A program made the position numbers and the translations under genes. From Gemmatimonadota bacterium (lineage in GTDB: Bacteria; Gemmatimonadota; Gemmatimonadetes; Gemmatimonadales; GWC2-71-9), in assembly GCA_003246755.1 (NCBI GenBank), contig QKDC01000162.1:1-33478 (forward strand): a stretch of 33,478 nucleotides of DNA, written 5' to 3'. Each line of letters begins with the position of its first letter. Position 1 is the first letter of the stretch. Shown one piece after another: positions 3,741 to 30,413 of this stretch. The notes under the pieces were generated by a model, which was not told the DNA's origin, made no database searches, and worked only from the letters and a program-made list of their open reading frames with translations.

Positions 3741-3776
3741 ACTCAGCGTTTCAAGGAGAGCGGTAAGACAGGACAG

Positions 3777-3785
<9 letters not shown>
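3741..3785. repeat. 45-bp imperfect direct repeat, copy 1
   Basis: It aligns without gaps to 6015-6059 at about 36 of 45 positions (80%), same orientation. It covers the last nine bases of the tRNA-Phe and its immediate downstream flank. The second copy lies beyond the start of the metallohydrolase gene, so the tRNA and that gene are bracketed. Confidence 0.65.
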
Positions 3786-3849
<64 letters not shown>

Positions 3850-6085: not shown

Positions 6086-6628
6086 TCAGTCCCGAATGTC
6101 GGGCTCCCACTGCGCCAACGGCGACACCCGGTCCAGCGTGGTCACCTCATCGCTATCGAGGACTTGCGTTGGACTCTGTTTCCCGTCAGTCCTCTGCAGA
6201 AGCGGAGGGGAGGGGCGTGGTAGAGCGGTGGTGGCCTTGTCGTAGTGATCGGGTTCCATGTCCTCGCTACTGCATCCCCCCGTGAGGACGAGACGAGAGA
6301 TGGCGCGGTTCGTTGCGCGGGTTTCTGCAGTGGCCTCACAAACGGCACGGCCCATGGCCCAGGCATGGCCGTTCTGGAATCCCTTCTCCTCTGCGAAACA
6401 GCTGCCGACCGCCTCTACAGTTTGCCCCCACGGGGCCATGGCCCGCACGATACACCGCGCGTGAAAGCCGTCCTCCCGGTGCTGGGTCTCGATCTGAGTC
6501 ACCCGGGTAGAGATGCCGAACCGGCGGGCCAGCTTGGCCCACGCCAACTCTCTCTCCTGCAGTCGCCCTTGGTCTTGTTGTGAGTCATTCATGCCGATCA
6601 GCGCGGCACCTGTTTCGTCGCAGAGCAT
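6086..6628 (-). CDS. Putative recombination/annealing-associated protein (AETRA..NRA motif)
   Basis: The product is 180 residues with no signal peptide. The centre reads like proteins from phage and plasmid recombination modules. A short beta-rich segment (FHARCIVRAMAPWGQTVEAV, about residues 55-74) is followed by an acidic turn and a helix with the pattern AETRATNRAISRLVLTG (about residues 101-117). That AETRAxNRA pattern recurs in ssDNA-annealing-type proteins of the RecT/Rad52-like groups. The C-terminus is proline-rich and probably disordered. It lies about 60 nt beyond the last gene of the sigma-factor cluster on the same strand, so read-through is possible, but nothing else links them. 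ATG 6628 has a weak GGTAGG; ATG 6592 is an alternative. The family assignment is tentative. Confidence 0.5.
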   Translation of the reverse strand: MLCDETGAALIGMNDSQQDQGRLQERELAWAKLARRFGISTRVTQIETQHREDGFHARCIVRAMAPWGQTVEAVGSCFAEEKGFQNGHAWAMGRAVCEATAETRATNRAISRLVLTGGCSSEDMEPDHYDKATTALPRPSPPLLQRTDGKQSPTQVLDSDEVTTLDRVSPLAQWEPDIRD

Positions 6629-6687: not shown

Positions 6688-7419
6688 CTAGGGGTTCGAA
6701 GCCGGACGGGGATGCGATCCTGGCGGTCGAGGTCTCTTGCCGGGAACACCCGGGTTTCCCGGCACGCCACCGGGCGGACCGAACCCGAGACCCACCCCGC
6801 CCATCCGACCCGGGAAGCCCGCACGTGCCATACCGAGTGCGGGCCCTACCTCGCTGGGACGCATCCCCTCAGCGATCATACGCCCGACCTGTTGTGGAAG
6901 GCCCGAAAGCTCGACGTCACTGGCCCGCGCTTCGAGACGAAGCAGCACGGCGGTGAGTGCCTGATCCGAGGGAAGGCCTCGATTCACCAGCGCTCCCACC
7001 AGGGCAAGAGGGACCACGAGAGAGCGACCTGAGGGCGCCGAAGCCGCCAGCGCGCTCACCGCATCCCCGTCCACACCCAAGGCCATCGTGTGACCCGCCG
7101 CCGCGATCTCGTCTTCGCCAGGACTCCGACCGGTCGTTTCAAGCGCGATCCGGGCGGCCTGCAATTGGCTCACAAACAGTTGTGCCGCGGCGAGCACTTC
7201 CTCCCCAGTGCGGCCTTTCGCCACCCCCTCGAGCGCCAGATTCGCCACGGCACCCCCTGGCAGCCCCCGGCTCATGGCGTCTTCCACCAGCGCCACCACC
7301 TGATCCCCGACTGCACCCGGTAGGACTTCACGCAAGCGCTCCACCGGCTCCTGCGCGAACAAGAACCCGGGCATCAGCACCAGCAGCATGACCAGCACAC
7401 CTCGCTCCATCGCCTTCAT
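6688..7419 (-). CDS. Exported helical protein of unknown function, paralogue of 8636-9298
   Basis: The 243-residue product has a clear signal peptide (about residues 1-22, ending FLFAQ) and then a mostly helical region. The C-terminal tail is rich in glycine and proline (GFGPPGGVPGNPGVPGKR). It is a paralogue of the product at 8636-9298: both contain ALEGVAK followed by a matched helix (LFVSQLQAARIAL against RLAAELREARGLL). Both also have a later segment built on VPLALVGALVNRGLPSDQA or IPFAVLGELVQRGVPAEQA. I know no named family. Start ATG 7419 follows GGAGG closely. It is the last gene of the sigma-factor cluster, 86 nt after the barrel/CBM48 gene. Periplasmic or surface location is inferred from the signal peptide. 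Confidence 0.75.
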   Translation of the reverse strand: MKAMERGVLVMLLVLMPGFLFAQEPVERLREVLPGAVGDQVVALVEDAMSRGLPGGAVANLALEGVAKGRTGEEVLAAAQLFVSQLQAARIALETTGRSPGEDEIAAAGHTMALGVDGDAVSALAASAPSGRSLVVPLALVGALVNRGLPSDQALTAVLLRLEARASDVELSGLPQQVGRMIAEGMRPSEVGPALGMARAGFPGRMGGVGLGFGPPGGVPGNPGVPGKRPRPPGSHPRPASNP

Positions 7420-7461
7420 CGTTGCACCTCCGTTTTCACACAGCCCTCACGGGCTCACACG

Positions 7462-7489
7462 ACAGACTCTTCCACTACAGACTCTTCCA
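7462..7489. repeat. Two 13-bp tandem direct repeats
   Basis: ACAGACTCTTCCA occurs at 7462-7474 and again at 7477-7489, a 15-bp period, in the gap between the barrel/CBM48 gene and the last exported protein gene. A small GC hairpin (AGCCC-TCAC-GGGCT, about 7442-7455) lies beside it with no T-run. A regulator site is possible but not shown. Confidence 0.5.
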
Positions 7490-7505
7490 ACCCCAAAGCG
7501 GTCAC

Positions 7506-8639
7506 TCACGGCACGATCAGTAGACCACTCTGGCTCCCGAACCCGTCGTCCACGGTGGGCACACCCTCGGGCACGATCCAGCGGTCCCCATCGATCACGA
7601 GGTTAAACCGATACACCCCCGACGGAAGAACTGTTCGCAACACCCAGGCACCATCAGGGGCGCGCTGCATGACGAGCGGCTTCCATCCCGTCCAGTCGCC
7701 AACGACCTCGACGCGGGTCGCCACCCCCACCATGAAACGCAAGAGGCCGGTTTCCTCTTCCCGCTCGTACACCGGGCGGCCGAGGGGTTTGATCGAGGGC
7801 ACTACCGAACGGCGCGTGGCAATCCGGAGCCCAACCGAGACGTAGCGTCCCCGAGGGAGCGCCTCCAGCAGGTCGGATGGATAGCTTCCTGCACCCGCGA
7901 CCAGCGCCATGTTGCGCGCGACCCACCAGGAGATGGTACCGCCGCCCCAAGCCGATGCTTCGACCGTGCTTCCGGTGGCGCCGTCGCGCCAGCCGCCGTA
8001 CGCCAGGACCTCGACGGGTCCCGCGACGGTCGAAACCCGGGCGTTGAGTTCGGGAAACCAGAAGCCTTCAATGCGGAGCCGCGTGAACATCAGTGCGGCG
8101 CGCGTGGTACCTTGGCGCCCCCAGAGACCCGCGGTTGGCCCGGCGCCACCGATCACGTCGCCGGTACCGGAGGCCCAGCCTCTCGCGCCCACGACCCCAA
8201 CCCAGCCACCAACCTGGCGTCCGCCCGCGTGAAGGCGGAACTCACCTCGGGTCGAGGCAGTACGAAAATCGGCGGTATGATAGGAGCCCTTCGCGATCCC
8301 CAAGAGTTCCATTCTGAACGGACTCAGGGCCCCAAGCGGAGCCGCCAACAGCGAAATGTCGCCCCGTCCTTGGGCGGCCCATTCCCCATCTTCAAAGCCA
8401 GTGAAACTCCCCGTGAGACTTGTAAACAGCTTTTGCGTTTGCCACTCGATCAACGGGGAAACCGAGGCGGAGTTCAGCGTGGCGACCGTATCGAAATCCA
8501 CCCGCGTGCCACTCAGGTCCGCTTGGATTCGTTGCGCTGATGCGGGACTCCCGGTCAACACCAGTGTCAGAACCACGAGCAGCGCAAGGCCTCGTTGCAC
8601 GGTGTCGTTCCTCAACCCGTTAGGAGAATGATGACTCAC
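7506..8639 (-). CDS. Probable outer-membrane barrel with C-terminal CBM48 glycogen-binding domain
   Basis: The 377-residue product has a signal peptide (about 1-36, ending SPASAQ). About 250 residues of alternating, glycine- and aromatic-rich strands follow, typical of an outer-membrane beta-barrel. The last roughly 75 residues are an AMPK-beta-type glycogen-binding domain: VEVVGDWTGWKPLVM, then GVYRFNLVIDGDRW and the ending VDDGFGSQSGLLIVP. The same domain, with the same VDDGFG ending, closes the membrane protein at 9309-9938. In the family this fold binds alpha-glucans such as glycogen or starch. The GTG start overlaps the upstream stop by 4 nt (GTGA), so translation is probably coupled. 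The barrel call rests on composition and pattern, not on a family match. Confidence 0.75.
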   Translation of the reverse strand: MSHHSPNGLRNDTVQRGLALLVVLTLVLTGSPASAQRIQADLSGTRVDFDTVATLNSASVSPLIEWQTQKLFTSLTGSFTGFEDGEWAAQGRGDISLLAAPLGALSPFRMELLGIAKGSYHTADFRTASTRGEFRLHAGGRQVGGWVGVVGARGWASGTGDVIGGAGPTAGLWGRQGTTRAALMFTRLRIEGFWFPELNARVSTVAGPVEVLAYGGWRDGATGSTVEASAWGGGTISWWVARNMALVAGAGSYPSDLLEALPRGRYVSVGLRIATRRSVVPSIKPLGRPVYEREEETGLLRFMVGVATRVEVVGDWTGWKPLVMQRAPDGAWVLRTVLPSGVYRFNLVIDGDRWIVPEGVPTVDDGFGSQSGLLIVP

Positions 8640-9298
8640 GGATTACCTGCAGGTGGACGGTTGGGGCGCCGGGGTCCAGGAGTGATCGGGCGCATTGGAA
8701 TACCAAGGCCTTGGAGTGCACTGCCCAACGCGGCAACTGGTGGCGCTCCCACCCGCAGGGCCACATCCATGCGGTCTGGAACTTCGACGAGCCGTTCCTG
8801 GGGCACCCGAGAGGCAAGGAACTGCTCGATTACACCGCGGGCCTGCTCGGCTGGAACACCACGCTGCACGAGTTCACCGAGCACGGCGAATGGTATCTCC
8901 AAAGGAGTGTCTGGTGGCGTCGTGTTGCGCAGTGTGGTGATCTCCCCCGGCGCGACACCGCGGCGCAGGGCTTCTGCCACAGCCACAACCTCGCCGGCGG
9001 TCGCTCTGCGCATCCCGGGTGCGGCGGTGACGAGGAGCCCCCGCGCCTCTCGCAACTCAGCCGCCAGACGTTGTACCACGGCCACGATCTGGGACCCGGG
9101 CCTCTTCTTGGCCACACCCTCCAGTGCCTTCGCCTCCAGCGCACGCAGCGGGATGGAGTCGCGCCGGGCCTGATCCAGCACAGGTTTCAACGCCTCGTAT
9201 GTCGCCGGGTCCAGCCGGGTTTCGAGCACACTCTGCTGGGCGCGAAGCGTGATGGGGGAGGCAGCGAGCAGGAGGAGAGCGAGGGTCCTGACGCTCAT
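8636..9298 (-). CDS. Exported helical protein of unknown function, paralogue of 6688-7419
   Basis: The product of about 220 residues has a signal peptide (SVRTLALLLLAASPITLRAQ) and a helical body. It shares ALEGVAK-x-R-x-G and later segments with the protein at 6688-7419, but lacks that protein's long glycine/proline tail, ending instead in a shorter proline/arginine-rich tail. It sits between the membrane CBM48 protein and the barrel CBM48 protein. Start ATG 9298 follows GAGGTG at 6-nt spacing. GTG 9307 would extend it by three residues. Its stop overlaps the next start. Function unknown; the conserved pairing with CBM48 proteins suggests an envelope role in the same process. Confidence 0.75.
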   Translation of the reverse strand: MSVRTLALLLLAASPITLRAQQSVLETRLDPATYEALKPVLDQARRDSIPLRALEAKALEGVAKKRPGSQIVAVVQRLAAELREARGLLVTAAPGMRRATAGEVVAVAEALRRGVAPGEITTLRNTTPPDTPLEIPFAVLGELVQRGVPAEQARGVIEQFLASRVPQERLVEVPDRMDVALRVGAPPVAALGSALQGLGIPMRPITPGPRRPNRPPAGNP

Positions 9299-9308
9299 TC
9301 GGCCCACC

Positions 9309-9938
9309 TCAGCTCTTCCGAGTCGGGATCAACAGCACACTGTTGTGCTGTCCGAACCCGTCGTCCACCTGAGAGGTGGCATTCGGATCGGGACGCCATT
9401 CGGTCCCGTCGATAATGAACACGTAATGGTGCACTCCTGGAGACAACTCCAATTCGGTTGTCCATACGCCAGCCCCACGCCGGTCTTCGAGCTGGATTCC
9501 ATTCGGATCCCAGTCAACAAAATCGCCGGTCACCGCCACACTCCCGGCGGAGGGAGCAACGAACACGAAGCGGGTCACGGCTCCCGTCGTAGTCGTGGCC
9601 GATGGCAGGTCTGCGGCACCTCGCCCCGAGAAGGGGAGGGCGAGCACGACGAGCGCGAGAACCAGGGCCACGGCCAAGGTGCCCGCGGCCGGGCTCAGGC
9701 GCAGGGTCTTGGGCGTGACGACCCAGTCCCACACGCGAAGCCACGGTGACTTTGCCAGAACCCGTACCTGCTTCATCACCCGCTCCCGGAGGGCACCCGG
9801 TGCGGTGATGCGTTCGCGCTTGAGCGCGGTCACGATGCGTTCGAAGTCCTGAGCATCCCGCTTGAGATCGGCAGGCAACTGTTCGAAGCCGTACTCGCCG
9901 TTCAGATACCGACTGAGGTCTTCATGCTCCCGGTTCAT
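9309..9938 (-). CDS. Anti-sigma-like single-pass membrane protein with C-terminal CBM48 domain
   Basis: The product is 209 residues. The cytoplasmic N-terminus (1-80) begins MNREHEDLSRYLNGE, is charged and helical, and resembles the start of small anti-sigma proteins without a zinc-binding HxxxCxxC motif. One transmembrane helix spans about 84-104. The outer domain (about 121-206) is an AMPK-beta/CBM48 glycogen-binding module: GSVAVTGDFVDWDPNG, ELSPGVHHYVFIIDGTEW and VDDGFGQHNSVLLIP. Its start overlaps the sigma gene stop by 4 nt (ATGA). By analogy with ECF/anti-sigma pairs, it probably holds the sigma factor until the outer domain senses a ligand, presumably a glucan. That role is inferred from layout and topology. 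Confidence 0.8.
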   Translation of the reverse strand: MNREHEDLSRYLNGEYGFEQLPADLKRDAQDFERIVTALKRERITAPGALRERVMKQVRVLAKSPWLRVWDWVVTPKTLRLSPAAGTLAVALVLALVVLALPFSGRGAADLPSATTTTGAVTRFVFVAPSAGSVAVTGDFVDWDPNGIQLEDRRGAGVWTTELELSPGVHHYVFIIDGTEWRPDPNATSQVDDGFGQHNSVLLIPTRKS

Positions 9939-10534
9939 AGTGCCACCCCTTGAAGTCTCTCCCGCAACGCCTCACGCCCTCTCAGGAGGCGCATTTTGAG
10001 GGCCGACTGGCTCGTGGATAAGAGATCGGCGATCTCCGGCAGGCTCAACCCATCGATATACTTGAGCACGAGCGCTTCCCGCTGGTCCACGGTGAGGTGC
10101 TGAAGCGCCTCGTGCACCGTACGCCGCAGTTCCGCTCCTTCGACGGCGGTATCGGGAGCATCCTTGTCGCCCGGCACACCCACGGCCGCCGAGAGCGATT
10201 CCCGATGGCGGCGGTGGTGGCGGGCCAGGTGAGTCTTGCACTGGTTGCTTACGATTCGAAACAGCCAGGCCTTGAAACGCGCCGGGTCCTTGCACTGCCG
10301 CAGCGACTTGTACGCCCGCACAAAACTGTCCTGGACAACGTCTGCGGCGTCGTCCGCGCTGCCAATCATGTAGTTGGCATATGCCACCAAGTCGTCTTGA
10401 TACCGATCGATGAGGAATCCGAACGATTCGGTGTCCCCGCACAGGACCCGTTCGATCACGGTACCGTCGGTCGGACTTTCGGGCATACGGTTTGGGTTCT
10501 CGAGCATACGGTTCGGGTTTTCGCGCATACCCAT
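9935..10534 (-). CDS. ECF-family RNA polymerase sigma factor
   Basis: The product is up to 199 residues. Sigma-70 region 2 spans about 32-105, with FGFLIDRYQDDLVAYANYMIG and then ADDAADVVQDSFVRAYKSL, the latter being the classic ECF region 2.2. Region 4 spans about 137-190, with LTVDQREALVLKYIDGLSLPEIADLL and an HTH helix STSQSALKMRLLRGREAL. It lacks regions 1 and 3, as ECF factors do. The N-terminus carries three 21-bp tandem repeats (MRENPNR, MLENPNR, MPESPTD), each beginning with an in-frame ATG (10528, 10507, 10486). None of these, nor ATG 10534, has a clear Shine-Dalgarno, so the start is open. It overlaps the CBM48 membrane protein gene by 4 nt and heads the operon. Confidence 0.9.
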   Translation of the reverse strand: MGMRENPNRMLENPNRMPESPTDGTVIERVLCGDTESFGFLIDRYQDDLVAYANYMIGSADDAADVVQDSFVRAYKSLRQCKDPARFKAWLFRIVSNQCKTHLARHHRRHRESLSAAVGVPGDKDAPDTAVEGAELRRTVHEALQHLTVDQREALVLKYIDGLSLPEIADLLSTSQSALKMRLLRGREALRERLQGVAL

Positions 10535-10836
10535 TGAGCGATACGCGCGCAGGCCGGTTTGGGATTGTCCACTGGTTGCCCGCCATCGTTTGCTCCGGGG
10601 GGACCCACCCCAGAGACTCCGCAGGCACTAGAAAGGTCACACCCGGGCCAACCACCCGCTAGCCAAAGGGTAACTAGGCGAAGCAGTGACCTGACCCCTC
10701 GTCGCCGAGAACGAGGGCGCACCAGGCGGGCGGGGTCAGAGGACCGATCCCCGACCGTCGTCTTTTCCTGGCGTGGACAGGCCGGACGTTTCCGCTCGTC
10801 GTCGGCACATTCCTCGCGCCGCACGGGGCTGTGGAT

Positions 10837-10894: not shown

Positions 10895-11052
10895 TGCCCT
10901 TCCACTGATTGCCCGGATCGCTGGACACTGGCAACACACTGGGTACCTTCTCCCCCTGGGCCCCAGACACCATGCACACCCGCCTTGTCGCGCTCCTCTC
11001 CTGGGGCGGGCCTGGCTCGTGGCAGGCACTCTGCTGGCTAGGGCAGGTACCG

Positions 11053-14000
11053 ATGTCGCAGCCCCGCCGCAACCGACTCCGCGTACTCCCAGCGGTCTGG
11101 CTGTTATTGGCCGGCCCGGTTTTCGCCCACACCCCATCTCTACAGAACCAGTCGCCTGCGGTCCGGCCGCACCAGGTCGTCACTGCCGGACCCGGACGGG
11201 GACAATGGCGCACCTTTGGTGTTCCAGATGGACTCCCAAGCGGGCTCGTGTGGGCCGTGCTCCCCGACCGCGACGGATACTTGTGGTTCGGTACCGACGG
11301 CGGTGGGATCGGGCGGTTCGATGGGCAGGAGTTTGAGGCGATCGCCGGGCAGGATCTGAGCGACCCCGCCCTTAGAGTGGTCTGGGCGATCCATCAGGAC
11401 CGGACGGGGAACCTGTGGTTTGGTGGCCCCAGCGGCGCGAGCCGATTCGACGGCGCATCCTTCACCAGGCTCGCTGATCAAGATGGCCCGATAGACGATT
11501 GGGTGCGCGTGATCGCCTCCGACCGTGCGGGCGCCCTGTGGTTCGGTACCCGTGGCGGTGCGGTGAGGTATGACGGCTCCACGATTGGGCGGCTCACCGC
11601 TGAAGATGGACTCGGCAGTGATTCGGTGGAGACGATCTTCCTGGACGACGAAGGCTTCCTCTGGTTCGGTACCTCGGGCGGTGTGAGCCGATATGACGGC
11701 CGAACGATCGTGACCTTCACGACCGATGACGGGCTGGTCCACAATTTTGTCCGCGCGATCGCCCAGGATCGGGAGGGATTTCTCTGGTTCGGTACCGCGG
11801 CCGGTGTCAGTCGGTACGATGGCGAGACGTTTGAGACGATCACGATGGAGGGCGGCTGGCTGGAACATACCGTGCAACCCATCGTCCGTGACCGGGCCGG
11901 CAATCTGTGGTTCGGACTCCGATCGGAATCCCGCGGTGGCCTACTCCGGTACGATGGCCAGAGGTTCAAGGTGTTCACCAGCCGCGACGGCCTCGTCGAC
12001 GACTATGTACAGGCCATTACGCAGGACCGGGAAGGGCACCTGTGGTTCGGTACGAATAGTGGCTTGAGCGAATACTCGGGGGACACGTGGACCACATTCA
12101 CGAGCGCCGATGGATTGGTGAACAACGACGTGTGGTCGCTCGCCGAGGATGGACAGGGACGCGTGTGGATCGGGACACGTAACGGCGTGAGCCGCTATGA
12201 CGGCACTTCGTTCACGACGCAAACCACCGAGGACGGCCTGGTCGATAACGTGGCCTACCGCATGTTCCACGATGGTCAGGGGAACGTCTGGGTGGGCAGC
12301 TGGAATGGAGGGGTGAGCAGATACGATGGCCGGACTTGGATCACGTTCCAGCAAAAGAACGGACTTCCGCTCCAGATGGTTCAGGCCTTTCTGCAGGACC
12401 GTAACGGCGACGTCTGGGTTGTGGGAAGGGGCGGTGCCAGTCGGTGGGACGGTCGCAGTTTCACGACAGTCACGACAAACGATGGTCTCGTGCACGACCA
12501 GGTGACGTCCGTCTTCGAGGATCACGAGGGGGTTCTCTGGTTCGGAACGACAGGCGGTGTGAGCCGTTACGACGGCGAACGCTTCGTCTCCTTCACCATG
12601 ACAGACGGACTGGCCGACAACCGTGTGCGCGCCATCAACGAGGACCGCGACGGCAACGTGTGGTTCGGCACCTTGCACGGTGTGAGCCGATACGATGGGG
12701 AGCGCATCACGAGCTTCACCAGCGCGGACGGTCTGGCCCACAATGCCGTAGTAGGCATCGTGCGCGACGGACGCGGGGACCTCTGGTTCGCCACTGAGGG
12801 TGGCGGCGCCAGTCGCTACGATGGGAAAGTCTTCTCGACATTTACCGTCGAGGACGGTCTGGCGCATAACGACGTCCGGGGCATGCTGATAGACCGAGAG
12901 GGAAGCTTGTGGTTCGCGACCTTGGGCGGGGTGACACGCTATCGTCCTCCCGCGCGCGGTCCACCATTGATCTTCATCGATGCGGTGGTGGCCGATCGGC
13001 GTTACGAGGGAGTGACAGAGCTTGCCTTACCCACGAACGTGGGGCTGACGTCCTTCTTGTTCCACGGCATCAGTTATAAGACGCGGCGGGGGGCGATGAC
13101 ATACCGCTATCGGTTGGCGGGTCACGATACGGGATGGCGGACCACCCATGAGCGGCGTGTCGAGTATCAGGACCTTCCGCGAGGGGCTTACACGTTCGAG
13201 GTGCAGGCCCTGGATCGCGACCTCGTCTACTCCGCGAACGCGGCAACGTTGCGTTTGACGGCGCACCTGCCCTACACCCAGGTCTCGCTGCTGTCGGCTC
13301 TAGGCCTCGCTGTGGTACTCATCGCCTGGCAGACGGGTCGTGCGGTCCAACGAGGCCGGCGGCTGGCGTTCGCCAACCAGACCCTCGAGTTGCAAAAAGC
13401 GGAGCTGGCCGGGGCGCGGGAGGCTGCGGAACGGGCCAACAGGGCCAAGAGCCGGTTCCTGGCCAACATGAGCCACGAGATCCGGACCCCGCTCAATGCG
13501 ATCCTGGGCTACGCGCAGATTCTGCGACGTGACTCGGAGACACCCAGGACCCACGACCGCGCGCTCGACACCATCGCGCGGAGCGGAGACCACTTGCTGA
13601 GCGTGATCAACGAAATCCTCGATATCTCCAGAATAGAGACGGGTGCGCTGGCACTCCACCCAGCCGATTTCGATCTGCAGACCGTGATCCGCGACCTGGA
13701 TGGCATGTTCCGGTTGCAGTGTGAATCGAAGGAGCTGAACTGGTGTGTGGAGCGGCCGGCAGATGATCGGTTGCTGGTTCGTGGAGATGAGGGGAAGCTG
13801 ACCGAAGTCCTGATCAACCTAGTGGGCAACGCCGTGAAGTTCACTGACGAGGGCAGCGTGAGCCTCAGGGTCACCTCCGGGCCCGCAGAGGAGTACCGAT
13901 TCGAGGTCGTGGATACCGGCCCGGGGCTTTCACCGGAGGTCCAGGACGTCATCTTCGAGCCGTTTGAACAGGCGGGGGTTGGGGTTCGGAAGGGAGGGAG

Positions 14001-14808
14001 CGGCCTGGGCCTCTCCATCGCACGGAGGCTGGTAGGCCTTATGGGCGGGGCCTTGACGGTGGAATCCAACCCGTCCGGGGGATCACGCTTCTGCTTCTCC
14101 CTGGAGCTTCCACCGGGACGGAACGGCCCGGTCGCGGTCGCAAGTTCACCGTGGTCCCGAGTGCGCCGCCTCGCAAATGGATATCATGTCACGGCCTTGG
14201 TCGCCGACGACGTGCTGGAGAACCGGGAAGTGCTTCGCCGCATCTTGATGGACGTTGGTGTAGCGGTGACCGTCGCCCACAACGGACGGGAGGCCATCGG
14301 ACGCCTGCAACACGAGGTGCCCGACATAGCGTTCCTGGACGTCCACATGCCCGAGATGGACGGGCTGCGGGTCGTCCGGTGGATCCGGGAACACCTCGGC
14401 CAGGACACCATCAAAGTCGTTGCCGTGTCGGCCTCTGTCCTCGACCAGGAACGAGAGCAGACCCTCGCAGCAGGGTTCGATTGGTTCTTGGCGAAGCCGG
14501 TCCGCGCCGAAGAGGTGTACGCGTCCCTTGCCGATCTACTTCACGTGGAGTACGACGAGGTGACCGCCGATGTGGTCGGGGATACGGTTTACGCCGAGCC
14601 AGACTGGAGACGACTGCCAAGTGGCCTGCTTGCCCGACTCGCGGAGGCCGCCGACGCACACAACGCCACCGACTTGGACCGATGCATCGCGGAGCTTGAT
14701 GCATTGGGCATGGAAGGGCGACACCTCGCCACTCGCCTCCGTGGATTGAGCGCGGACTACGACATGGATGGGATCCTGCGCCTGCTCGGAGGCCATCGCA
14801 ATGCCTGA
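11053..14808 (+). CDS. Hybrid histidine kinase with 14-repeat Reg_prop sensor, Y_Y_Y domain and REC
   Basis: The product is 1251 residues. A signal/anchor segment ([16 protein letters not shown]) is followed by fourteen propeller repeats of the form LWFGT..GVSRYDG, enough for two seven-bladed propellers. A Y_Y_Y domain (about 625-735) and a transmembrane helix (about 745-765) follow. Next is HisKA with phospho-acceptor H808 in [11 protein letters not shown], then HATPase with [16 protein letters not shown] and [10 protein letters not shown]-terminal receiver has acceptor D1096 in [11 protein letters not shown]. This is the hybrid two-component layout known for periplasmic polysaccharide sensing in Bacteroides, but it lacks the AraC-type output domain. 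Output is presumably passed to the overlapping sigma54 regulator gene. ATG 11053 is chosen because it follows AGGGCAGG and gives an ideal signal peptide. In-frame ATG 10972 and TTG 10909 give implausible N-termini. Confidence 0.9.
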
Positions 14809-16300
14809 GGCATCTGTGGACGTGGCCGGAGCCCGCGTGCTTCTCATCGACGACAGGCCCGAGAATCTCAGCGTGCTCCAGCGGGCACTGGAATCGGCCG
14901 GATTCAATGTTCTTGTCGCTACCAACGGGACGCAGGGCCTCAAGGTCGCAAAGCGCACGGTCCCCGACCTGATCCTGTTGGACGTGGTCATGACGGGCAT
15001 GGATGGGTTCGAAACCTGCCGGCGGCTCAAGGCCGAGCCGGTCACGCGGGATATCCCGGTGCTCTTCCTGACCGTCCGCCGGGAGACGAGCGACGTGGTG
15101 AGCGGCTTCGCGGCTGGTGGCGTGGACTATATCGCAAAGCCCTTCCAGCACGAGGAATTGCTAGCGCGCGTCCGGACCCACCTCGAGAAGGCTCGCCTGG
15201 CACAGACTCTCATCGAGCAGAATCAACGCCTCGAAGCCGAGATCGCTTGCCGAGAGGCTCTCGGCCGGGAGCGCAACCAGCTTGCTGGTCGGTTGTCGAT
15301 GATTTCGCAACACGAGACCGAACGGTGGGGAATCGCAGGCCTCGTGGGCCGGAGCCAGGCCATACAGCAGATTCTCGAAGAGATCGACCTGCTCCGACAG
15401 ACTCCCAATGCCTCGGTCCTCATCACCGGCGAGAGCGGTACTGGCAAGGAGTTGATCGCCCGCGCGTTGCACTTTGGAGGCCCGCGGGCGGAAGGGCCCT
15501 TCGTGGCCGTGAACTCGGCGGCCGTACCGGCGGATCTTGCTGAATCCCGGCTCTTCGGTCATGTGCGCGGGGCGTTCACCGGCGCGGAAAGCGACCGGAT
15601 AGGGAGCTTCGAGTTGGCTGATGGGGGAACCTTGTTCCTGGACGAGATCGGGGCCATGCCCACTGCTCTGCAACCCAAGTTGCTCCGGGTGCTCGAGGAT
15701 GGTCGGTTCCTGCCGGTGGGGGCGAAACAGGAGCGCACGGCGAGCGTGCGCCTGGTGTGTGCGACCAACGCCGATCTGCAGTCGGAGATGGCTGCGGGCC
15801 GGTTTCGGCCGGATCTCTACTTTCGGCTCGCGCGGTTTGTGGTTCGGGCGCCGGCGCTGCGCGAACGAAGAGAGGATGTGCCGCTCTTGAGCCGCCACTT
15901 CATCGCCGTGTTCGCGCGCGAGATGAACCTGGAACCGCCGGCCCTCAGCCCCCAGGCGCTCGAGGCACTCGCGAGCTACCATTTTCCCGGCAACGTGCGC
16001 GAGCTGAAGAACATCGTCGAGCGTGCCCTGATCTACAGCCGCGGAGCCGAGATCCGGCCCGAACACCTACAGTTCGCGCCTCAGGTAAGGTCCGGACCGT
16101 CGCCCACACCCGACCCCGTCACGCCGGCAGAGCCGGGCACCATCCCTCTCGAGTTAGAGGGGGCCACCCGGTGGGCAGTTGAACGCGCCCTTGTGATGAC
16201 CGATGGGAATGTGGCGGCAGCCGCCCGTCTTCTCGGCACCAGCCGCACTCGCATCTACCGCCTGCTTCAGAGGGAGAGAGGCGAACGCCATGAGGGGTGA
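14801..16300 (+). CDS. NtrC-type sigma54-dependent response regulator
   Basis: The product is 499 residues. The receiver (about 8-125) has acidic DD in LLIDDRPEN, acceptor D61 in LILLDVVM and lysine in IAKPF. After a coiled linker comes the AAA+ sigma54-interaction domain with Walker A GESGTGKE (210-217), the sigma54-contact loop GAFTGA (257-262), Walker B GTLFLDEIG and arginine-finger region FRPDLYFRL. The C-terminal Fis-type HTH (NVAAAARLLGTSRTRIYRLL) binds DNA. All parts needed for an active enhancer-binding protein are present. It overlaps the histidine kinase gene by 8 nt. ATG 14801 follows GGAGG at 14788-14792 with 8-nt spacing, better than ATG 14768. The cognate pair is therefore clear; targets are not. 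I found no -24/-12 promoter in the gaps of this window. Confidence 0.92.
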   Translation: MPEASVDVAGARVLLIDDRPENLSVLQRALESAGFNVLVATNGTQGLKVAKRTVPDLILLDVVMTGMDGFETCRRLKAEPVTRDIPVLFLTVRRETSDVVSGFAAGGVDYIAKPFQHEELLARVRTHLEKARLAQTLIEQNQRLEAEIACREALGRERNQLAGRLSMISQHETERWGIAGLVGRSQAIQQILEEIDLLRQTPNASVLITGESGTGKELIARALHFGGPRAEGPFVAVNSAAVPADLAESRLFGHVRGAFTGAESDRIGSFELADGGTLFLDEIGAMPTALQPKLLRVLEDGRFLPVGAKQERTASVRLVCATNADLQSEMAAGRFRPDLYFRLARFVVRAPALRERREDVPLLSRHFIAVFAREMNLEPPALSPQALEALASYHFPGNVRELKNIVERALIYSRGAEIRPEHLQFAPQVRSGPSPTPDPVTPAEPGTIPLELEGATRWAVERALVMTDGNVAAAARLLGTSRTRIYRLLQRERGERHEG

Positions 16301-24816: not shown

Positions 24817-24892
24817 CACTCCGTGAAGGGTTCTCCACCCTCGCACGATGGGCCTTCCGGGGGCATCTTATGGTTCCCCAACCGGAGCCCAT

Positions 24893-27583
24893 TTGACTGA
24901 TATGACCCCTGCCCCGATCGCCGAGGCGCTCGCCGAACGTTACCGCATTGAGCGGGAACTCGGTGCCGGGGGGATGGCCACGGTCTACCTCGCCGATGAT
25001 TTGAAACACGACCGGAAGGTCGCGCTCAAGGTCCTGAAGCCGGAACTCGCCGCCGTACTCGGTGGTGACCGGTTTGTTCAGGAGATCAAGACCACCGCCA
25101 ACCTCCAGCACCCGCACATCCTCCCGCTCTTCGACTCGGGCACCGCGAACGGATTTCTCTATTACGTGATGCCGTTCATTGACGGCGAGACCCTGCGCGA
25201 CAAGCTCAATCGGGAAAAGCAACTCGGCGTCGAGGAATCGGTGAGGATCGCGACCGAGGTGGCGGACGCGCTCGACTACGCGCACCGGCAGGGCGTGATC
25301 CACCGGGACATTAAGCCCGAGAACATCCTCCTCCACGATGGCCGGCCGATGGTTGCCGACTTTGGGATCGCGCTCGCCCTGAGTGCCGCGGCCGGCGGCC
25401 GGATGACTGAGACGGGAATGTCGATCGGCACCCCCTACTACATGAGCCCCGAGCAGGCGACGGCCGAGAAGGAACTCTCACCGCGATCGGACGTGTACTC
25501 CCTGGGCTGTGTGCTCTACGAGATGCTGGCCGGCGAGCCGCCGCACACGGGGGCCACGGCGCAGGCGATCATTCTCAAGATCGTGGCCGACACGGCGCGG
25601 CCAGTCACCGATCTCCGAAAGTCGGTGCCCCCGAACGTGGCCGCGGCGCTCACCAAGGCGCTCGAGAAACTGCCGGCCGATCGGTTCGAGAGCGCCAAGG
25701 CCTTCGCTGAGTCGTTGAGCAACCCGGCGTTCGGGCTCGTGGGGCCTTCGGCTACGAGGGCCATGGTGGGCGGGAGGGTGCTCCCCGCGCGCGGCGTCTC
25801 GGTCCGGCTCTTCGCCGCGGTCGGCGCAGTCGCCGTGCTGGCGATCGTCGCCACTCTGTTTCTCGCCCTCAGGTCCCGCCCCGAGGTCCGGGTCTCCAAG
25901 TTCAGCGTCCTCCTCCCGATCCTGACCTACGAGGAATTCCAGGGGACGGATAACCGGTTCGTCGCCACCCCTGACGGAAGAGCTCTGGTGTTCTTGGGTG
26001 ACGACGGCCGGCTCTGGGTGCGTTCGCTCGACGCGCTCGAGGCGCGAGCCCTGGAAGGGACGAATAATGCAAACGCCGCGTTCATGTCGCCCGACGGACG
26101 GCAGGTCGGGTACCTCGCTCAGGGGCAGAACGCCATTCGTCTCGTGTCTCTCACCGGCGGCCCCACGATTACCGTGGCGGATTCCGGGATCGGCCAATGG
26201 GGTGCGACCTGGAGCCAGGACGGGTTCATCTACGCCTCCTCGACCGCTCCCACGGTCACCGGCATCGTGCGGGTTCCGGCCAACGGTGGTGGTCACGCCG
26301 AACCGGTCACCACGATCGACCGTGCGGCCGGCGAAACCGCCCACATCCTCCCTCAGGCGCTGCCCAACGGGAAAGCGATCCTGTTCACGGTCCAGCGTGG
26401 CGGCGTCACCTCGACCAACGACATCGCGGTCACGGTCCCCGGGTCGGGAGAGCACACGATCCTGGTGCGTGGGGTGGCGGCACGCTACACCGCGTCCGGA
26501 CACCTGCTGTACCTGACGACCAACGGTACCCTGATGGCGGTGCCCTTCGATCAGCGCCGCCTCCGGGTCGACGGGGACCCCGTCCCCATTCTGGAGGGGC
26601 TCCCGGTGGCCGGCGCCTTCGCCGACATGGACCTCACCGTCTCCGAGAGCGGGACCCTGTGGTACGGGACCGGATCGATTGCACAGGATGTGGAGCCCAT
26701 CTGGGTGGACCGCGACGGCGGAGTGGTGCCCGTGGAGCCGGGCTGGGTCGGCGATTTCCGCTATCCGGCGCTCTCTCCCGACGGAACACGCCTCGCCTAC
26801 AGCATCGCCGACAACAGCGAGGTTCAGCTCTGGATCAGGAGACTTGGGCCCACTGGTGGCACCCAGGCGATTTTCACGCGGGAAGGCTCGGTCAACTTCC
26901 GGCCATCGTGGTCGCCCGATGGACGCACGATCGCCTTCGTGTCCGATCGTGGCCCGGACTACGACATGTTCGTCAAGCCCGCCGACCAGAGCGGGCAGGC
27001 CGAACTCCTCCTGGGCCGCGACTCCGACAAGCCGCTCTGGGAGGTGGTGTACACCGGTGGCCCGTGGTTGCTCTATCGAGCCGAGGATCGAGCCTCCGAT
27101 CTCTACGCCATCCGGCCGGGCATCGACAGCACACCCACACCGCTGGTCGTGACCGACGCGACGGAGCGCATGCCCATGCTCTCACCCGATGGGCGCTGGC
27201 TTGTGTACACCTCGACGGCCTCCGGGCGGACGGAGGTCTACGTGCGACCCTTCCCCAATGTGACCGAAACCGTCTGGCAAGTCTCCACGACTGGGGGGAA
27301 TGAGCCGCGTTGGTCGCACAGCGGTCGCGAACTGTTCTACCGCAGCGGAGACAACCACCTCGTGGCGGTCGCCATCGCCGCGGGAGCCACCTTCGAGTGG
27401 GGCGCACCCCGCGCGTTGTTCCCGATGACGGGGTATCGCACGGCGGGCAACGGACGGATGTACGACGTGACCCCAGACGACCGGCGATTCCTCATGCTGC
27501 GCGTCCTGCCGAGCGAGAAGGCGTCGGAGGTGATCGTGGTGCAGAATTTCTTCGAGGAACTCAAGGCCAAGGTGCCGAGGTAG
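24893..27583 (+). CDS. Membrane Ser/Thr protein kinase with C-terminal TolB-like propeller (kinase 1)
   Basis: The product is about 896 residues. The Hanks-type kinase domain (about 15-280) has the glycine loop GAGGMATVY, catalytic lysine in VALKVLKPE, HRDIKPEN with catalytic D139, DFG in VADFGIAL and MSPEQ. A transmembrane helix (about 303-325) leads to an outer domain with PD40 repeats (SPDGRQVGYLA, SPDGTRLAYS, SPDGRTIAFVSDR). It therefore probably senses something outside and phosphorylates cytoplasmic targets. The domain order and the closing VVQNFFEELKAKVPR are shared with kinase 2. The start is uncertain: TTG 24893 has GGAG at 5-nt spacing; ATG 24902 is three codons later. The next kinase gene begins 4 nt after the stop. 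Confidence 0.9.
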   Translation: MTDMTPAPIAEALAERYRIERELGAGGMATVYLADDLKHDRKVALKVLKPELAAVLGGDRFVQEIKTTANLQHPHILPLFDSGTANGFLYYVMPFIDGETLRDKLNREKQLGVEESVRIATEVADALDYAHRQGVIHRDIKPENILLHDGRPMVADFGIALALSAAAGGRMTETGMSIGTPYYMSPEQATAEKELSPRSDVYSLGCVLYEMLAGEPPHTGATAQAIILKIVADTARPVTDLRKSVPPNVAAALTKALEKLPADRFESAKAFAESLSNPAFGLVGPSATRAMVGGRVLPARGVSVRLFAAVGAVAVLAIVATLFLALRSRPEVRVSKFSVLLPILTYEEFQGTDNRFVATPDGRALVFLGDDGRLWVRSLDALEARALEGTNNANAAFMSPDGRQVGYLAQGQNAIRLVSLTGGPTITVADSGIGQWGATWSQDGFIYASSTAPTVTGIVRVPANGGGHAEPVTTIDRAAGETAHILPQALPNGKAILFTVQRGGVTSTNDIAVTVPGSGEHTILVRGVAARYTASGHLLYLTTNGTLMAVPFDQRRLRVDGDPVPILEGLPVAGAFADMDLTVSESGTLWYGTGSIAQDVEPIWVDRDGGVVPVEPGWVGDFRYPALSPDGTRLAYSIADNSEVQLWIRRLGPTGGTQAIFTREGSVNFRPSWSPDGRTIAFVSDRGPDYDMFVKPADQSGQAELLLGRDSDKPLWEVVYTGGPWLLYRAEDRASDLYAIRPGIDSTPTPLVVTDATERMPMLSPDGRWLVYTSTASGRTEVYVRPFPNVTETVWQVSTTGGNEPRWSHSGRELFYRSGDNHLVAVAIAAGATFEWGAPRALFPMTGYRTAGNGRMYDVTPDDRRFLMLRVLPSEKASEVIVVQNFFEELKAKVPR

Positions 27584-27587
27584 GCGG

Positions 27588-30284
27588 ATGAACCCAGTGG
27601 ACTCGCTCAACATCGCTCTCGAAGGCCGGTATCGCATCGCACGCGAAATCGGTCGTGGCGGGATGGCCACCGTGTATCTCGCGGAGGACCTGAAACACAA
27701 GCGCAACGTCGCCCTCAAGGTTCTCCTGCCGGAACTGGCTGCCATGATCGGCGCCGACCGCTTCCTCAAGGAGATCGAGGTCACCGCCAATCTGCAGCAT
27801 CCGCACATTCTGCCGCTGTTCGATTCCGGCCTCGCGGAGACGCGGGGCGGAGACGGGAGCCGCTTTCTCTATTACGTGATGCCTTTCGTCGAGGGCGACA
27901 CGCTCCGTGACAAACTGCGCCGCGAAAAACAGCTCGGCGTGGAAGAGGCGGTCGAGTTGACACGAAGCGTGGCCGCTGCGCTCGACTATGCGCACCGTCG
28001 GGGCGTCGTTCACCGTGACATCAAGCCGGAGAACGTGTTGCTGCACGACGGGCAGGCGATGGTGGCCGACTTCGGGATCGCACTCGCGGTGCGCGAGGCG
28101 GGTGGTACCCGACTCACGGGCACCGGGCTCTCGGTGGGCACCCCGTCGTACATGAGTCCCGAGCAGGCGATGGGCGACCGGGAACTGGATGCGCGAAGCG
28201 ATATCTACTCGCTCGGTGCCATGCTCTACGAGATGTTGGCGGGCGACCCGCCGTTCACCGGAAGTACCGCGCAGGCAATCGTCGCCAAGATCCTGACCGA
28301 GGCGGCGCCCGCGGTGACTCGTGCTCGTGCATCGGTGCCCGGCAACGTCGGCGCCGCGATCCACAAGGCCCTCGAACGGCTTCCGGCCGATCGCTTTGCC
28401 AGCGCAGCCGAGTTCGCAGACGCACTCTCGAATCCGTCGTTCACCGTTCAGGGAATGGCCGGCTCGGCAACCGCTTCGACGGGAGCCCGTTCCCTGTGGA
28501 ACTCCCTCAGCGTTGCCACCACTGCCGTCGCGCTCGTCGCCATCCTGGCGCTCGTCGGGGTCGGACTGCGGCCCGAGCCTGGGCTACCGGTCAAGCGGCT
28601 CGTCCTTGCGGGCGAGGCGCTGGTACCGGGCGGGATCAATAGGATCGCACTCGCACCTGATGGGTCCGCGTTCGTCTACGCAGGCCAGGATGCATCCGGC
28701 GCCTCTCGCCTCATGCTCCGACGCTTCGAGCAACTCGGTGCCACGGCGCTTCCCGGTACGGAAGGCGGGGTCTCCCCGGCTTTTTCTCCCGACGGAGAGC
28801 GGATCGCCTTTCTCAGCAACGCGCCGTTCTCGATCAAGGTCGTATCCACCAACGGGGCTCCTGCGATCACGCTGGAAGACCAGGGCGTGATCGGCGGGGG
28901 AGTGGCCTGGAGCAAGGACGACTGGATCTACTTCGATGCTGGGGCCAGTCTCGATCGAGTCCGAGGTGGAGGCGGAGGACGGGAAACGGTCGTGGCTCTC
29001 GACTCGACCATCGGGGAGGTTGGTTTCGCCTGGCCCGAGCCGTTGCCGAACGGCAAGGGCCTGATTTTTCGGTCCCGGCGTTCGGGCGAGACGGTGCAGA
29101 ACTACGTGATCAAAGCAATGGACCTCGAGACTCGGACTCAGAAGGTCCTGCTGCAAGCGGTTGTCGCCCGCTATGTGTCGACGGGCCATCTCGTTTATGT
29201 CACGGGTGACGGGGTTCTCCTTTCCGCCCCGTTCGACCAGGATCGACTGGAACTCACGGGCGCACCCACTCCGCTCATCGAAGGCCTCGGCGTAGCCGGT
29301 TTCGGCAGCGTGGACCTGGCGTTGTCGGAATCGGGGGATCTCATGTACCTCAGCACCGAGGGCCCCGGGGGTGAACGGATCTCGTGGGGGCGCCGGGATG
29401 GGACATCCGAACCGGTCGACCCCGAATGGGAGATCGGGGTGGAAACCATCATCGGCATGGCACTCTCCCCCGATGGCAAACGGCTGGCCCTGGCCATTGG
29501 CTCAGGAGGCGGCCGTGGGGCTCCAAGCGATATTTGGGTGAAGGACCTCGACACTGGCCCGATGTCGAAACTCACCTTTGAGGGTGTCAACTATTCGCCC
29601 GCATGGACCCGTGACGGATCGGCCATCGTGTACATCGCTGTTCCGTCCAACGACCCGAACATCGTGGGGCAATTGTACCGAATTCGGGCAGACGGAACCG
29701 GCTCCCCGGAGCCCTTGCTCACCGAGCCCCGTGGCGTGGATGAGGTCCATGTCTCGCCGGTGGATGACTGGATCGTCGTCTCCAGTGCGCCATCGGGGAG
29801 CGGCGCGGGGGATATCCTCGCGTTCCGTCCGGGGCGCGATACCGCAATGGTCCCCCTTCTCTCCAGTCCTAGCCTTGAGACCCTGCCAAGACTCTCGCCC
29901 GACGGACGGCTGCTGGCTTACGTGTCAATGGAGTCCGGACGTCCCGAGGTCTATGTTCGGCCATTTCCTGGCGTGACCCAGGGCAAGTGGCAGGTTTCCG
30001 TAGAGGGTGCCTTCTGGCCCCGGTGGACGCACAGCGGCTCGGAACTCCTCTACCTGACCCTCGGCAACGATGTGACGTCGGCTGAAGTCCGCACCACTCC
30101 GACCTTCTCCGTGGGTCGGCGGCGAGTGCTGCACAACGCGGGCGCCATCCCGATGTTCGAGGTGGCTCCGGACGATCAGCGGTTTCTGCGTCTCGCCTCG
30201 CGGGCCCGCTCGGATTCGACGATGAGCCAGTTGGTGCTGGTGCAGAACTTCCTGACAGAGCTGAAGGCCAAGACCCCACGCTAG
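27588..30284 (+). CDS. Membrane Ser/Thr protein kinase with C-terminal TolB-like propeller (kinase 2)
   Basis: The 898-residue product is a tandem paralogue of kinase 1. Its kinase domain has GRGGMATVYLAEDLKHK, HRDIKPEN with D144, VADFGIALA and the activation segment ending GTPSYMSPEQ. One transmembrane helix (about 305-325, VATTAVALVAILALVGVGL) precedes the PD40-rich outer domain, which ends LVLVQNFLTELKAKTPR. The ATG follows GAGGTAGGCGG at the end of kinase 1, so translation is likely coupled. The shared propeller ending suggests a recent duplication, while differences in the blades may reflect different ligands. Substrates unknown. Confidence 0.9.
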   Translation: MNPVDSLNIALEGRYRIAREIGRGGMATVYLAEDLKHKRNVALKVLLPELAAMIGADRFLKEIEVTANLQHPHILPLFDSGLAETRGGDGSRFLYYVMPFVEGDTLRDKLRREKQLGVEEAVELTRSVAAALDYAHRRGVVHRDIKPENVLLHDGQAMVADFGIALAVREAGGTRLTGTGLSVGTPSYMSPEQAMGDRELDARSDIYSLGAMLYEMLAGDPPFTGSTAQAIVAKILTEAAPAVTRARASVPGNVGAAIHKALERLPADRFASAAEFADALSNPSFTVQGMAGSATASTGARSLWNSLSVATTAVALVAILALVGVGLRPEPGLPVKRLVLAGEALVPGGINRIALAPDGSAFVYAGQDASGASRLMLRRFEQLGATALPGTEGGVSPAFSPDGERIAFLSNAPFSIKVVSTNGAPAITLEDQGVIGGGVAWSKDDWIYFDAGASLDRVRGGGGGRETVVALDSTIGEVGFAWPEPLPNGKGLIFRSRRSGETVQNYVIKAMDLETRTQKVLLQAVVARYVSTGHLVYVTGDGVLLSAPFDQDRLELTGAPTPLIEGLGVAGFGSVDLALSESGDLMYLSTEGPGGERISWGRRDGTSEPVDPEWEIGVETIIGMALSPDGKRLALAIGSGGGRGAPSDIWVKDLDTGPMSKLTFEGVNYSPAWTRDGSAIVYIAVPSNDPNIVGQLYRIRADGTGSPEPLLTEPRGVDEVHVSPVDDWIVVSSAPSGSGAGDILAFRPGRDTAMVPLLSSPSLETLPRLSPDGRLLAYVSMESGRPEVYVRPFPGVTQGKWQVSVEGAFWPRWTHSGSELLYLTLGNDVTSAEVRTTPTFSVGRRRVLHNAGAIPMFEVAPDDQRFLRLASRARSDSTMSQLVLVQNFLTELKAKTPR

Positions 30285-30285
30285 C

Positions 30286-30405
30286 ATGACCACCCCGGAA
30301 TCCCTCCGCTTCGCCGTCGCCGACCCCTATCGTATTGAACGGGAACGTGACCAGGGCGGCACGGCCGTGGTCATTCGTGCCGAGCCGCTCCTGGCCCAGC
30401 GTTGA
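30286..30405 (+). pseudogene. 39-codon relic of a fourth kinase N-terminus
   Basis: An ATG one base after the kinase 2 stop opens a 39-codon frame. Residues 15-27 read YRIERERDQGGTA, the YRIERELGxGGMA start of the Hanks kinase domain with two substitutions. The frame ends soon after, before any catalytic lysine. The glycine loop is damaged (the first loop glycine is replaced by Asp, and MATVY by TAVVI). Its stop overlaps the TTG upstream of kinase 3. It looks like a leftover from unequal recombination in the kinase array, though a short leader peptide cannot be excluded. Confidence 0.65.
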
Positions 30406-30413
30406 GCGGCGAC

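Follow-up and report, generated by a model that had tools for sequence, protein, structure and literature searches.

An ECF sigma factor, a single-pass membrane protein with an outer CBM48 domain, an outer-membrane barrel whose C-terminal domain is another CBM48, and two small exported helical proteins form, as judged from sequence comparison across the phylum Gemmatimonadota, one self-contained and autoregulated module that is inherited as a unit. What is new here is a conserved ECF-type promoter, which is predicted upstream of the sigma gene and, independently, upstream of the last helical-protein gene. The window, that is, the whole stretch of DNA that was analyzed, comprises 33,478 nucleotides from a soil-type member of this phylum. 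All five open reading frames claimed in an earlier note on this DNA lie at the given positions on the minus strand, and the same five genes are chosen in the window by an independent codon-usage gene caller. They follow the order ECF sigma factor, single-pass CBM48 protein, helical exported protein, barrel with CBM48 and helical-protein paralogue; the first two overlap by 4 bases, in line with the ATGA coupling read from the sequence before. The two promoters were absent from the earlier note (Table 1).

Table 1. Features of the module, in window coordinates.
Feature	Position	Strand	Basis
Predicted ECF-type promoter P1 of the sigma operon, core GTGACC-N17-GTCT	10614..10640	-	PWM 20.4
ECF sigma factor, sigma-2 and sigma-4 domains	9935..10534	-	profile matches, homologue alignment
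Predicted class I-like anti-sigma factor, ATGA overlap with sigma gene	9309..9938	-	domains, adjacency, anti-sigma model matches
CBM48 (AMPK1_CBM) of predicted anti-sigma factor	9324..9548	-	Pfam, residue alignment
Small exported all-alpha protein A, place equivalent to rseB or cnrX	8636..9307	-	predicted structure, pLDDT 91
Outer-membrane barrel of 14 strands, OmpG/CymA-like porin fold, C-terminal CBM48	7506..8639	-	Pfam, AlphaFold2, Foldseek
CBM48 of barrel protein, periplasmic by barrel topology	7512..7721	-	Pfam, hhalign, residue alignment
Predicted ECF-type promoter P2, precedes small protein B	7479..7505	-	PWM 15.2
Small exported all-alpha protein B, a paralogue of A transcribed as a separate unit	6688..7419	-	phmmer, upstream motif

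The expectation that the cluster is conserved in relatives was borne out: Sampling across the phylum showed the same set of genes again at 40 loci, which removes the objection of missing conservation and means that the locus is not a product of chance. The earlier observation is thus confirmed as real, and it is larger than described. Of 298 sampled genomes of the phylum, 189 (about two thirds) encode homologues of the CBM48 membrane protein, often several each, and the sigma gene adjoins the membrane-protein gene in 38 of 40 relatives, with one further locus ending at a contig edge; in most relatives the two genes overlap by ATGA or a similar arrangement. The distances between homologues correlate from part to part (r 0.69–0.79), including those of the sigma factor and the N-terminal part of the membrane protein (r 0.69). 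A contig search with a single sequence had returned only one named relative, a Gemmatimonadetes MAG.

The assignment of the sigma factor rests on matches above the curated cut-offs to Sigma70_r2 (PF04542, 62 bits), to Sigma70_r4_2 (PF08281, 53 bits) and to the NCBIfam model sigma70-ECF (TIGR02937, 109 bits against a cut-off of 42.9). Its best NCBIfam models are of ECF type, for example PRK05602, SigW and sigma70-ECF, and like other ECF (group IV sigma-70) factors it consists only of the sigma-2 and sigma-4 regions in about 170–200 amino acids. According to the alignment with homologues, its true start is likely at 10486 (MPESPTDGTVIERV). Upstream of the sigma genes, and independently upstream of the last helical-protein gene, we found a phylum-wide ECF-type motif, (A/G)TGTGACC-N15-T(A/C)GTCTTT; 14 of the 39 upstream regions of homologues contain the dyad GTGAC-N18-GTCT, compared with at most 5 in shuffles. 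The conserved motif suggests that the sigma factor is autoregulated through the predicted P1.

The second promoter, P2, was scored with a PWM trained on sigma promoters only, and a motif of its type precedes 10 of the 17 small-protein genes that have a free gap upstream, as against 10 of 205 genes of other kinds (p 4e-8). When this genome was searched with exact patterns, the strict motif gave only two intergenic, gene-proximal sites, P1 being one of them and both lying within the module; apart from these two, the 30 sites inspected were intragenic or had no nearby gene start and were taken as chance. In a sister species the sigma promoter is the only close fit to the motif. In another family the strict motif yields 31 sites in 35 genomes, most of them ahead of the sigma operon, versus 5 for a reversed control; the pattern TGTGACC-N17-GTCTTT, tried as a search motif in family f1, proved too strict (2 sites). 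Judged by its motif sites, the regulon hardly extends beyond the module, adding exported proteins and lipoproteins; the switch appears to control mainly itself. No glucan enzyme was seen among the motif sites examined.

For the single-pass protein, the best reading of its sequence is that of a class I-like anti-sigma factor. Its predicted topology comprises a cytoplasmic N-terminal part, one transmembrane helix (about residues 86–104) and a periplasmic CBM48. The proposal that the ECF factor is paired with a membrane anti-sigma factor bearing an outer CBM48-type domain gains support from an NCBIfam anti-sigma model, to which 17 of the 38 homologues show a match in their N-terminal part (best E 1.7e-10, short of the curated cut-off), and from a weak resemblance of residues 1–64 to RseA of PDB 1or7 (E 0.049). 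No Pfam anti-sigma family was matched by the protein and no HxxxCxxC motif was found in it; this motif is optional in class I (ASDI) anti-sigma factors (PMC7406223). None of the 38 homologues has a Pfam or NCBIfam match to the RsgI N-terminal domain or to the autocleaving periplasmic domain. Some homologues have a short N-terminal part, and at one locus, L072, the membrane protein stands without an adjacent sigma gene.

The barrel, formerly only a probable one, was predicted by AlphaFold2 as 14 strands followed by the C-terminal CBM48 (mean pLDDT 88) and is best read as a porin of the monomeric type. Its best PDB matches are OmpG, with the cyclodextrin porin CymA lower in the list: Both have the 14-strand barrel in common with it (Foldseek E 1e-7 and 1e-5), but the identity is about 10% and both lack a C-terminal CBM48. 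The likeness may reflect strand number only. A barrel with terminal CBM48 is present in 34 of 41 loci; since seven loci do without it, the barrel is dispensable for the switch. The helical protein is present in 40 of 41 loci. The paralogy proposed for the two small proteins is evident from mutual phmmer matches (E 1e-8 to 1e-10), and in protein A an ATG start at 9298 is more likely. A PDB fold search with the helical protein gave nothing under E 0.1, and no consistent Pfam family was found for the small proteins; weak and inconsistent matches to TraE, TAL-effector and T2SSF were dropped.

Both CBM48 assignments hold at a cut-off of 26.8 bits for AMPK1_CBM, with 44.1 bits for residues 131–205 of the single-pass protein and 32.7 bits for residues 307–374 of the barrel protein, and these two domains are the only PF16561 matches in the whole genome. 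Their shared VDDGFG ending is genuine: The two families align in hhalign with E 3.6e-30, and each of them conserves the D and G positions. In a tree they form two clades with mirrored subclades. The nearest solved structures are the glycogen-binding domains of AMPK-beta (E about 1e-11), in which Trp100, Trp133, Lys126 and Asn150 contact the glucan. The equivalent of Trp100 is kept in 40/40 anti-sigma and 34/34 barrel domains, that of Trp133 in 38/40 and 33/34, and that of Asn150 in 35/40 and 9/34, respectively, while the position of Lys126 is never Lys or Arg in the 74 sequences; in the anti-sigma factor of the window the two stacking tryptophans are W143 and W181. As both ends of a 14-strand barrel are periplasmic, its C-terminal CBM48 should be periplasmic as well, like that of the anti-sigma factor; the predicted topology thus places both domains in the periplasm, whereas the earlier note had proposed glucan-binding proteins at the surface.

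The idea of surface glucan is supported in part: The stacking tryptophans are kept, whereas the topology argues against a surface location, and the loss of Lys126 in 74 of 74 domains, the GH13 inventory and the neighboring genes lend no support to alpha-glucan as the signal. GH13 enzymes are absent from the genome, and in the sample of family f1 the same is true of 15 of 44 module-bearing genomes, where a tested link between module and GH13 was not significant (p 0.18). No glucan enzyme or other glycan gene was found to recur beside the module loci. The glycogen genes of this genome (GT5 and three GH57) lie away from the module, look cytoplasmic and lack the promoter motif; as the motif is missing, control of this cluster by the sigma factor was rejected.

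We propose that the sigma factor is retained at the inner membrane by the N-terminal part of the single-pass protein, whose periplasmic CBM48 reads a signal, either a sugar or a partner protein. Most likely this would be an alpha-glucan-type oligosaccharide that enters the periplasm and is bound on the tryptophan pair; binding would release the sigma factor, presumably by regulated proteolysis as in other membrane anti-sigma factors. Once free, the sigma factor would act on both promoters, on P1 for its own operon and on P2 for small protein B, thereby yielding the porin, whose periplasmic side bears the sister CBM48, as well as the two helical proteins, which may serve as periplasmic co-regulators or chaperones, comparable to RseB for RseA. 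We put the chances of this sugar-gated circuit at about even, the ligand being its least secure step. The same circuit could also work without sugar if CBM48 were a protein–protein module through which the anti-sigma factor senses porin assembly or the helical proteins. Such an envelope sensor would fit the narrow regulon, the sister domains on sensor and target with their mirrored trees, the exported protein in the rseB position as well as the lost lysine and the missing GH13 link; pure protein contact, however, would not need the stacking tryptophans kept in nearly all 74 domains, and several loci have the anti-sigma factor and a small protein but no barrel. We regard it as possible, though on the unlikely side.

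A sugar sensor with a ligand other than alpha-1,4-glucan, such as an envelope or exopolysaccharide glycan, a trehalose-type sugar or an osmoregulated periplasmic glucan, seems improbable to us: A kept tryptophan pair beside a lost Lys126 and a divergent Asn150 equivalent would suit it, as would modules without alpha-glucan enzymes in genomes without GH13, but the closest solved relatives bind alpha-glucan, and the neighborhood of the module shows no recurrent gene for another glycan either. That the membrane protein is no anti-sigma factor at all, the sigma factor being regulated otherwise and the operon simply encoding envelope proteins, is very improbable. The absent Pfam family, the marginal RseA match, the short homologues and L072 would fit it; the translational overlap, the correct single-pass layout, the NCBIfam matches and the correlated distances of sigma factor and N-terminal part speak against it. 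A bolder reading, less likely than not, is that the sister CBM48s of sensor and porin descend from one ancient duplication and compete for the same ligand, hand it over or touch, so that the cell would gauge the inflow of sugar or the supply of porin right where the porin opens into the periplasm; if true, this would be a phylum-wide signaling principle in Gemmatimonadota. Because its sigma factor and promoter are defined and its targets few, the module lends itself to direct tests in E. coli or in a Gemmatimonadota strain in culture.

The open-access literature searched yielded no earlier account of the module, and two function-unknown families, the DUF4382 lipoproteins and the helical proteins that are exported, gain a regulatory context. 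The CBM48s share the PF16561 family and both stacking tryptophans with AMPK-beta but have lost Lys126, are exported and are unlinked to a kinase or glucan enzyme. The envelope stress module rpoE-rseA-rseB of E. coli likewise has the order sigma factor, single-pass anti-sigma factor and exported periplasmic protein under autoregulation, and the N-terminal part of RseA weakly resembles the predicted class I-like one here; however, RseA lacks a CBM48, the helical proteins are no relatives of RseB, and the RpoE regulon is wide. The Bacteroidetes ECF/FecR-type systems with SusC/D also couple a sigma/anti-sigma pair to a sugar-permeable outer-membrane protein, whereas the module has a 14-strand barrel and no TonB-dependent receptor, SusD, FecR domain or glycoside hydrolases. 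RsgI of Clostridium thermocellum is a membrane anti-sigma factor with an outer C-terminal carbohydrate-binding module, present as several paralogous pairs per genome (PMC12203970, PMC10766802). The SigI/RsgI biomass sensors thus resemble the module in this outer domain and in the several pairs per genome, but RsgI has an autocleaving periplasmic domain and exposes CBM3, CBM42, PA14 or GH sensors outside the Gram-positive wall, with cellulosome genes as regulon, whereas the module has a CBM48 in a Gram-negative periplasm, no autocleaving domain and a regulon of porin and helical proteins. By its domains, the module would work like SigI/RsgI yet is not a member, having neither RsgI domains nor a SigI-type sigma factor. 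With it, carbohydrate-sensing anti-sigma factors would be represented in a third lineage, by a different sensor, next to those of cellulolytic clostridia and the regulators of glycan uptake in Bacteroidetes.

The module is real and conserved throughout the phylum; its predicted promoter is well delimited and the mechanism proposed for it is coherent. In the 3.15-Mb, 96% complete genome carrying the window (contig C87, all 33,478 bases of it), the five genes lie on the minus strand, in the order that the earlier note had described: ECF sigma factor, CBM48 membrane protein, and two small exported proteins flanking a second CBM48 protein. Its assignment of a CBM48 domain to both the membrane protein and the probable barrel protein likewise holds, as the Pfam scores of the two C-terminal AMPK-type domains exceed the curated cut-offs; no further PF16561 protein was found in this genome. 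The annotated sigma start crosses a short tandem repeat, which is probably leader DNA because the sigma homologues start at the last Met of this stretch.

Coordinates of the module, its predicted promoters and further features (window positions unless a locus or genome is named)
Feature	Position	Strand	Remarks
ECF sigma gene	9935-10534	-	likely start 10486
Tandem repeat	10486-10534		..RENPNRMLENPNRMPE..
Single-pass protein, 209 aa	9309-9938	-	C-terminal AMPK-type CBM48 (Pfam)
Small exported protein A	8636-9307	-	
Exported 377-aa protein	7506-8639	-	C-terminal AMPK-type CBM48 (Pfam)
Small exported protein B	6688-7419	-	
Promoter match P1	10614-10640	-	matrix from sigma upstream regions
Promoter match P2	7479-7505	-	exact site, just after barrel gene, ~60 bases before small protein B
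Matrix match	30344-30375	+	score 20.9, AACGTGACC-N15-TGGTCATT
DUF4382 lipoproteins	L033:4811-5443, L034:2147-3088, L039:7724-8488		adjoin module, with its promoter
Helical lipoproteins	L040:4082-5161, L044:785-1834		adjoin module, each with promoter match; family in six of 41 loci
Anti-sigma homologue	L072:5869-6562		no adjacent sigma gene, promoter motif directly in front
Glycogen-type cluster (L138)	G000:C35:30317-38948		probable phosphorylase, GT5, three GH57; genome without GH13
180-aa ORF	6086-6628	-	adjoins module; no Pfam or NCBIfam match
Hybrid histidine kinase	10909-14808		large, propeller sensor (by eye)
Response regulator	14768-16300		sigma-54 type, overlaps kinase (by eye); pair adjoins and faces away from sigma operon
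Three consecutive genes	24848-33095		same layout, Ser/Thr protein kinase then WD40-like propeller; Pfam check covers last only
tRNA-Phe (GAA)	3776-3849	-	sole RNA gene found in window

Of 298 genomes sampled from the phylum, 189 encode homologues of the single-pass protein; at genus level the count is 81 of 119, and two to eight matches in a single genome are frequent. Among 40 regions from seven families, which were picked from the better matches and are not a random sample, the sigma gene lies directly upstream in 38, which answers in the affirmative the question, raised by the earlier note, of whether the gene order is conserved in Gemmatimonadota; of the other two, L046 lies at a contig end and L072 has no adjacent sigma gene. 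A four-base overlap joins the two genes in 17 of the 39 pairs that were measured, and short overlaps of other lengths are frequent. Counting the window, 34 of 41 loci encode another protein that ends in a CBM48, and 40 encode the exported helical protein; when all neighbours were clustered, the module families were the only ones found in more than seven loci.

Matches of its N-terminal part, together with the overlap with the sigma gene, suggest that the single-pass protein is likely a class I-like anti-sigma factor. In 17 of 38 homologues this part matches an NCBIfam anti-sigma model over the residues before and through the transmembrane helix, the best match (E 1.7e-10) lying below the model's cut-off, and over residues 1-64 the family profile has a weak match (E 0.049) to RseA of the sigma-E complex. 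According to PMC7406223, a class I anti-sigma factor accompanies about 79% of the ECFs in Gemmatimonadetes; the class I domains are reported not to require a zinc motif and, as a rule, to be joined to C-terminal domains specific to their group, to which signal sensing is attributed. In the alignment of the homologues (A5, L059-L071 group), two forms occur, one of which lacks the first ~25 residues with their LDGE motif; this short form accompanies one CBM48 subclade.

The 377-aa protein is predicted to form a 14-strand barrel followed by the CBM48 domain (mean pLDDT 88, 33-sequence alignment). Among solved folds it is closest to OmpG (E 1e-7), with the cyclodextrin porin CymA lower in the ranking (E 1e-5). 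Both ends of an outer-membrane barrel with an even number of strands are periplasmic; by this topology the C-terminal CBM48 should be periplasmic as well, which contradicts the surface location proposed earlier. For the helical protein the prediction is all-alpha and of high confidence (pLDDT 91), and the PDB fold search returned no solved relative with E below 0.1.

Regarding the ligand, the nearest solved sequences of both CBM48 families are AMPK-beta glycogen-binding domains, and equivalents of Trp100 and Trp133 (AMPK-beta numbering) are found in 74 and 71 of 74 domains, all of which speaks for glucan, whereas the absence of a Lys126 equivalent from all 74 speaks against it. The Asn150 equivalent counts on both sides, being present in 35 of 40 anti-sigma domains but absent in most barrel domains. 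No GH13 protein was found in the window's genome by a search that was positive in 13 of 14 controls; its GT5 and three GH57 genes lie in one cluster, show no signal peptides by eye, and no module promoter was found there. Of the 44 genomes with a module in the family of the window, 15 have no GH13, and the association between module and GH13 is not significant. Taken together, these residue patterns and enzyme inventories make sugar binding by the CBM48 domains likely, alpha-glucan a possible ligand and extracellular starch utilisation unlikely.

For the promoter, two-block words were enumerated in the upstream sequences of 39 sigma homologues and compared with shuffled sets: GTGAC-N18-GTCT occurs in 14 of the 39, whereas no word exceeds 5 in the shuffled sets, and almost every locus has a site for the refined matrix (A/G)TGTGACC-N15-T(A/C)GTCTTT. 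Its training set comprised only sigma upstream regions, yet this matrix matches 10 of the 17 small-protein genes with a free upstream gap, as against 10 of 205 among unrelated genes (p 4e-8); those missed are mostly of the A type, that is, following the anti-sigma gene. Another family yielded 31 strict sites in 35 genomes versus 5 for a reversed-pattern control, mostly before the sigma operon. P1 and P2 are the only intergenic strict-motif sites with a gene nearby in the window's genome; in the sister species G013, the sigma promoter alone is closely placed. In relatives, the motif also precedes DUF4382 lipoproteins, of which the window's genome has none, and other exported proteins. Because the sites are few and lie at the module and at exported or lipoprotein genes, the regulon looks short and envelope-directed. 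The strong plus-strand matrix match ~40 bases before the protein-kinase/PD40 gene at 30414 may mark a further target or be due to chance.

In the tree, the two CBM48 families separate as clades (support 95/92), and the subclades of one mirror those of the other. Distance matrices of sigma factor, anti-sigma N-terminal part, anti-sigma CBM48, barrel CBM48 and barrel body correlate with r of 0.69-0.79 (permutation p 0.0005 each), to which shared species history contributes. In G013 and G198, which carry two modules apiece, the components of a given module mostly cluster with one and the same set of other modules and not with the second module of their own genome. From these sequence comparisons we infer that the sister CBM48 pair on the predicted sensor and the porin that it would control is old and inherited together.

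Descriptions of a CBM48 anti-sigma factor or of a porin with CBM48 were not found in the open-access literature searched, many subscription papers lying outside it. The gene order of the module resembles rpoE-rseA-rseB (PMC8103513). In C. thermocellum, the SigI/RsgI biomass sensors report polysaccharide through a CBM that the anti-sigma factor carries on its outer side (PMC12203970, PMC10766802). Although the module is not a member of this system, having neither an RsgI domain nor a SigI-type sigma factor, it is alike in its proposed working, its predicted anti-sigma factor also carrying an outer CBM.
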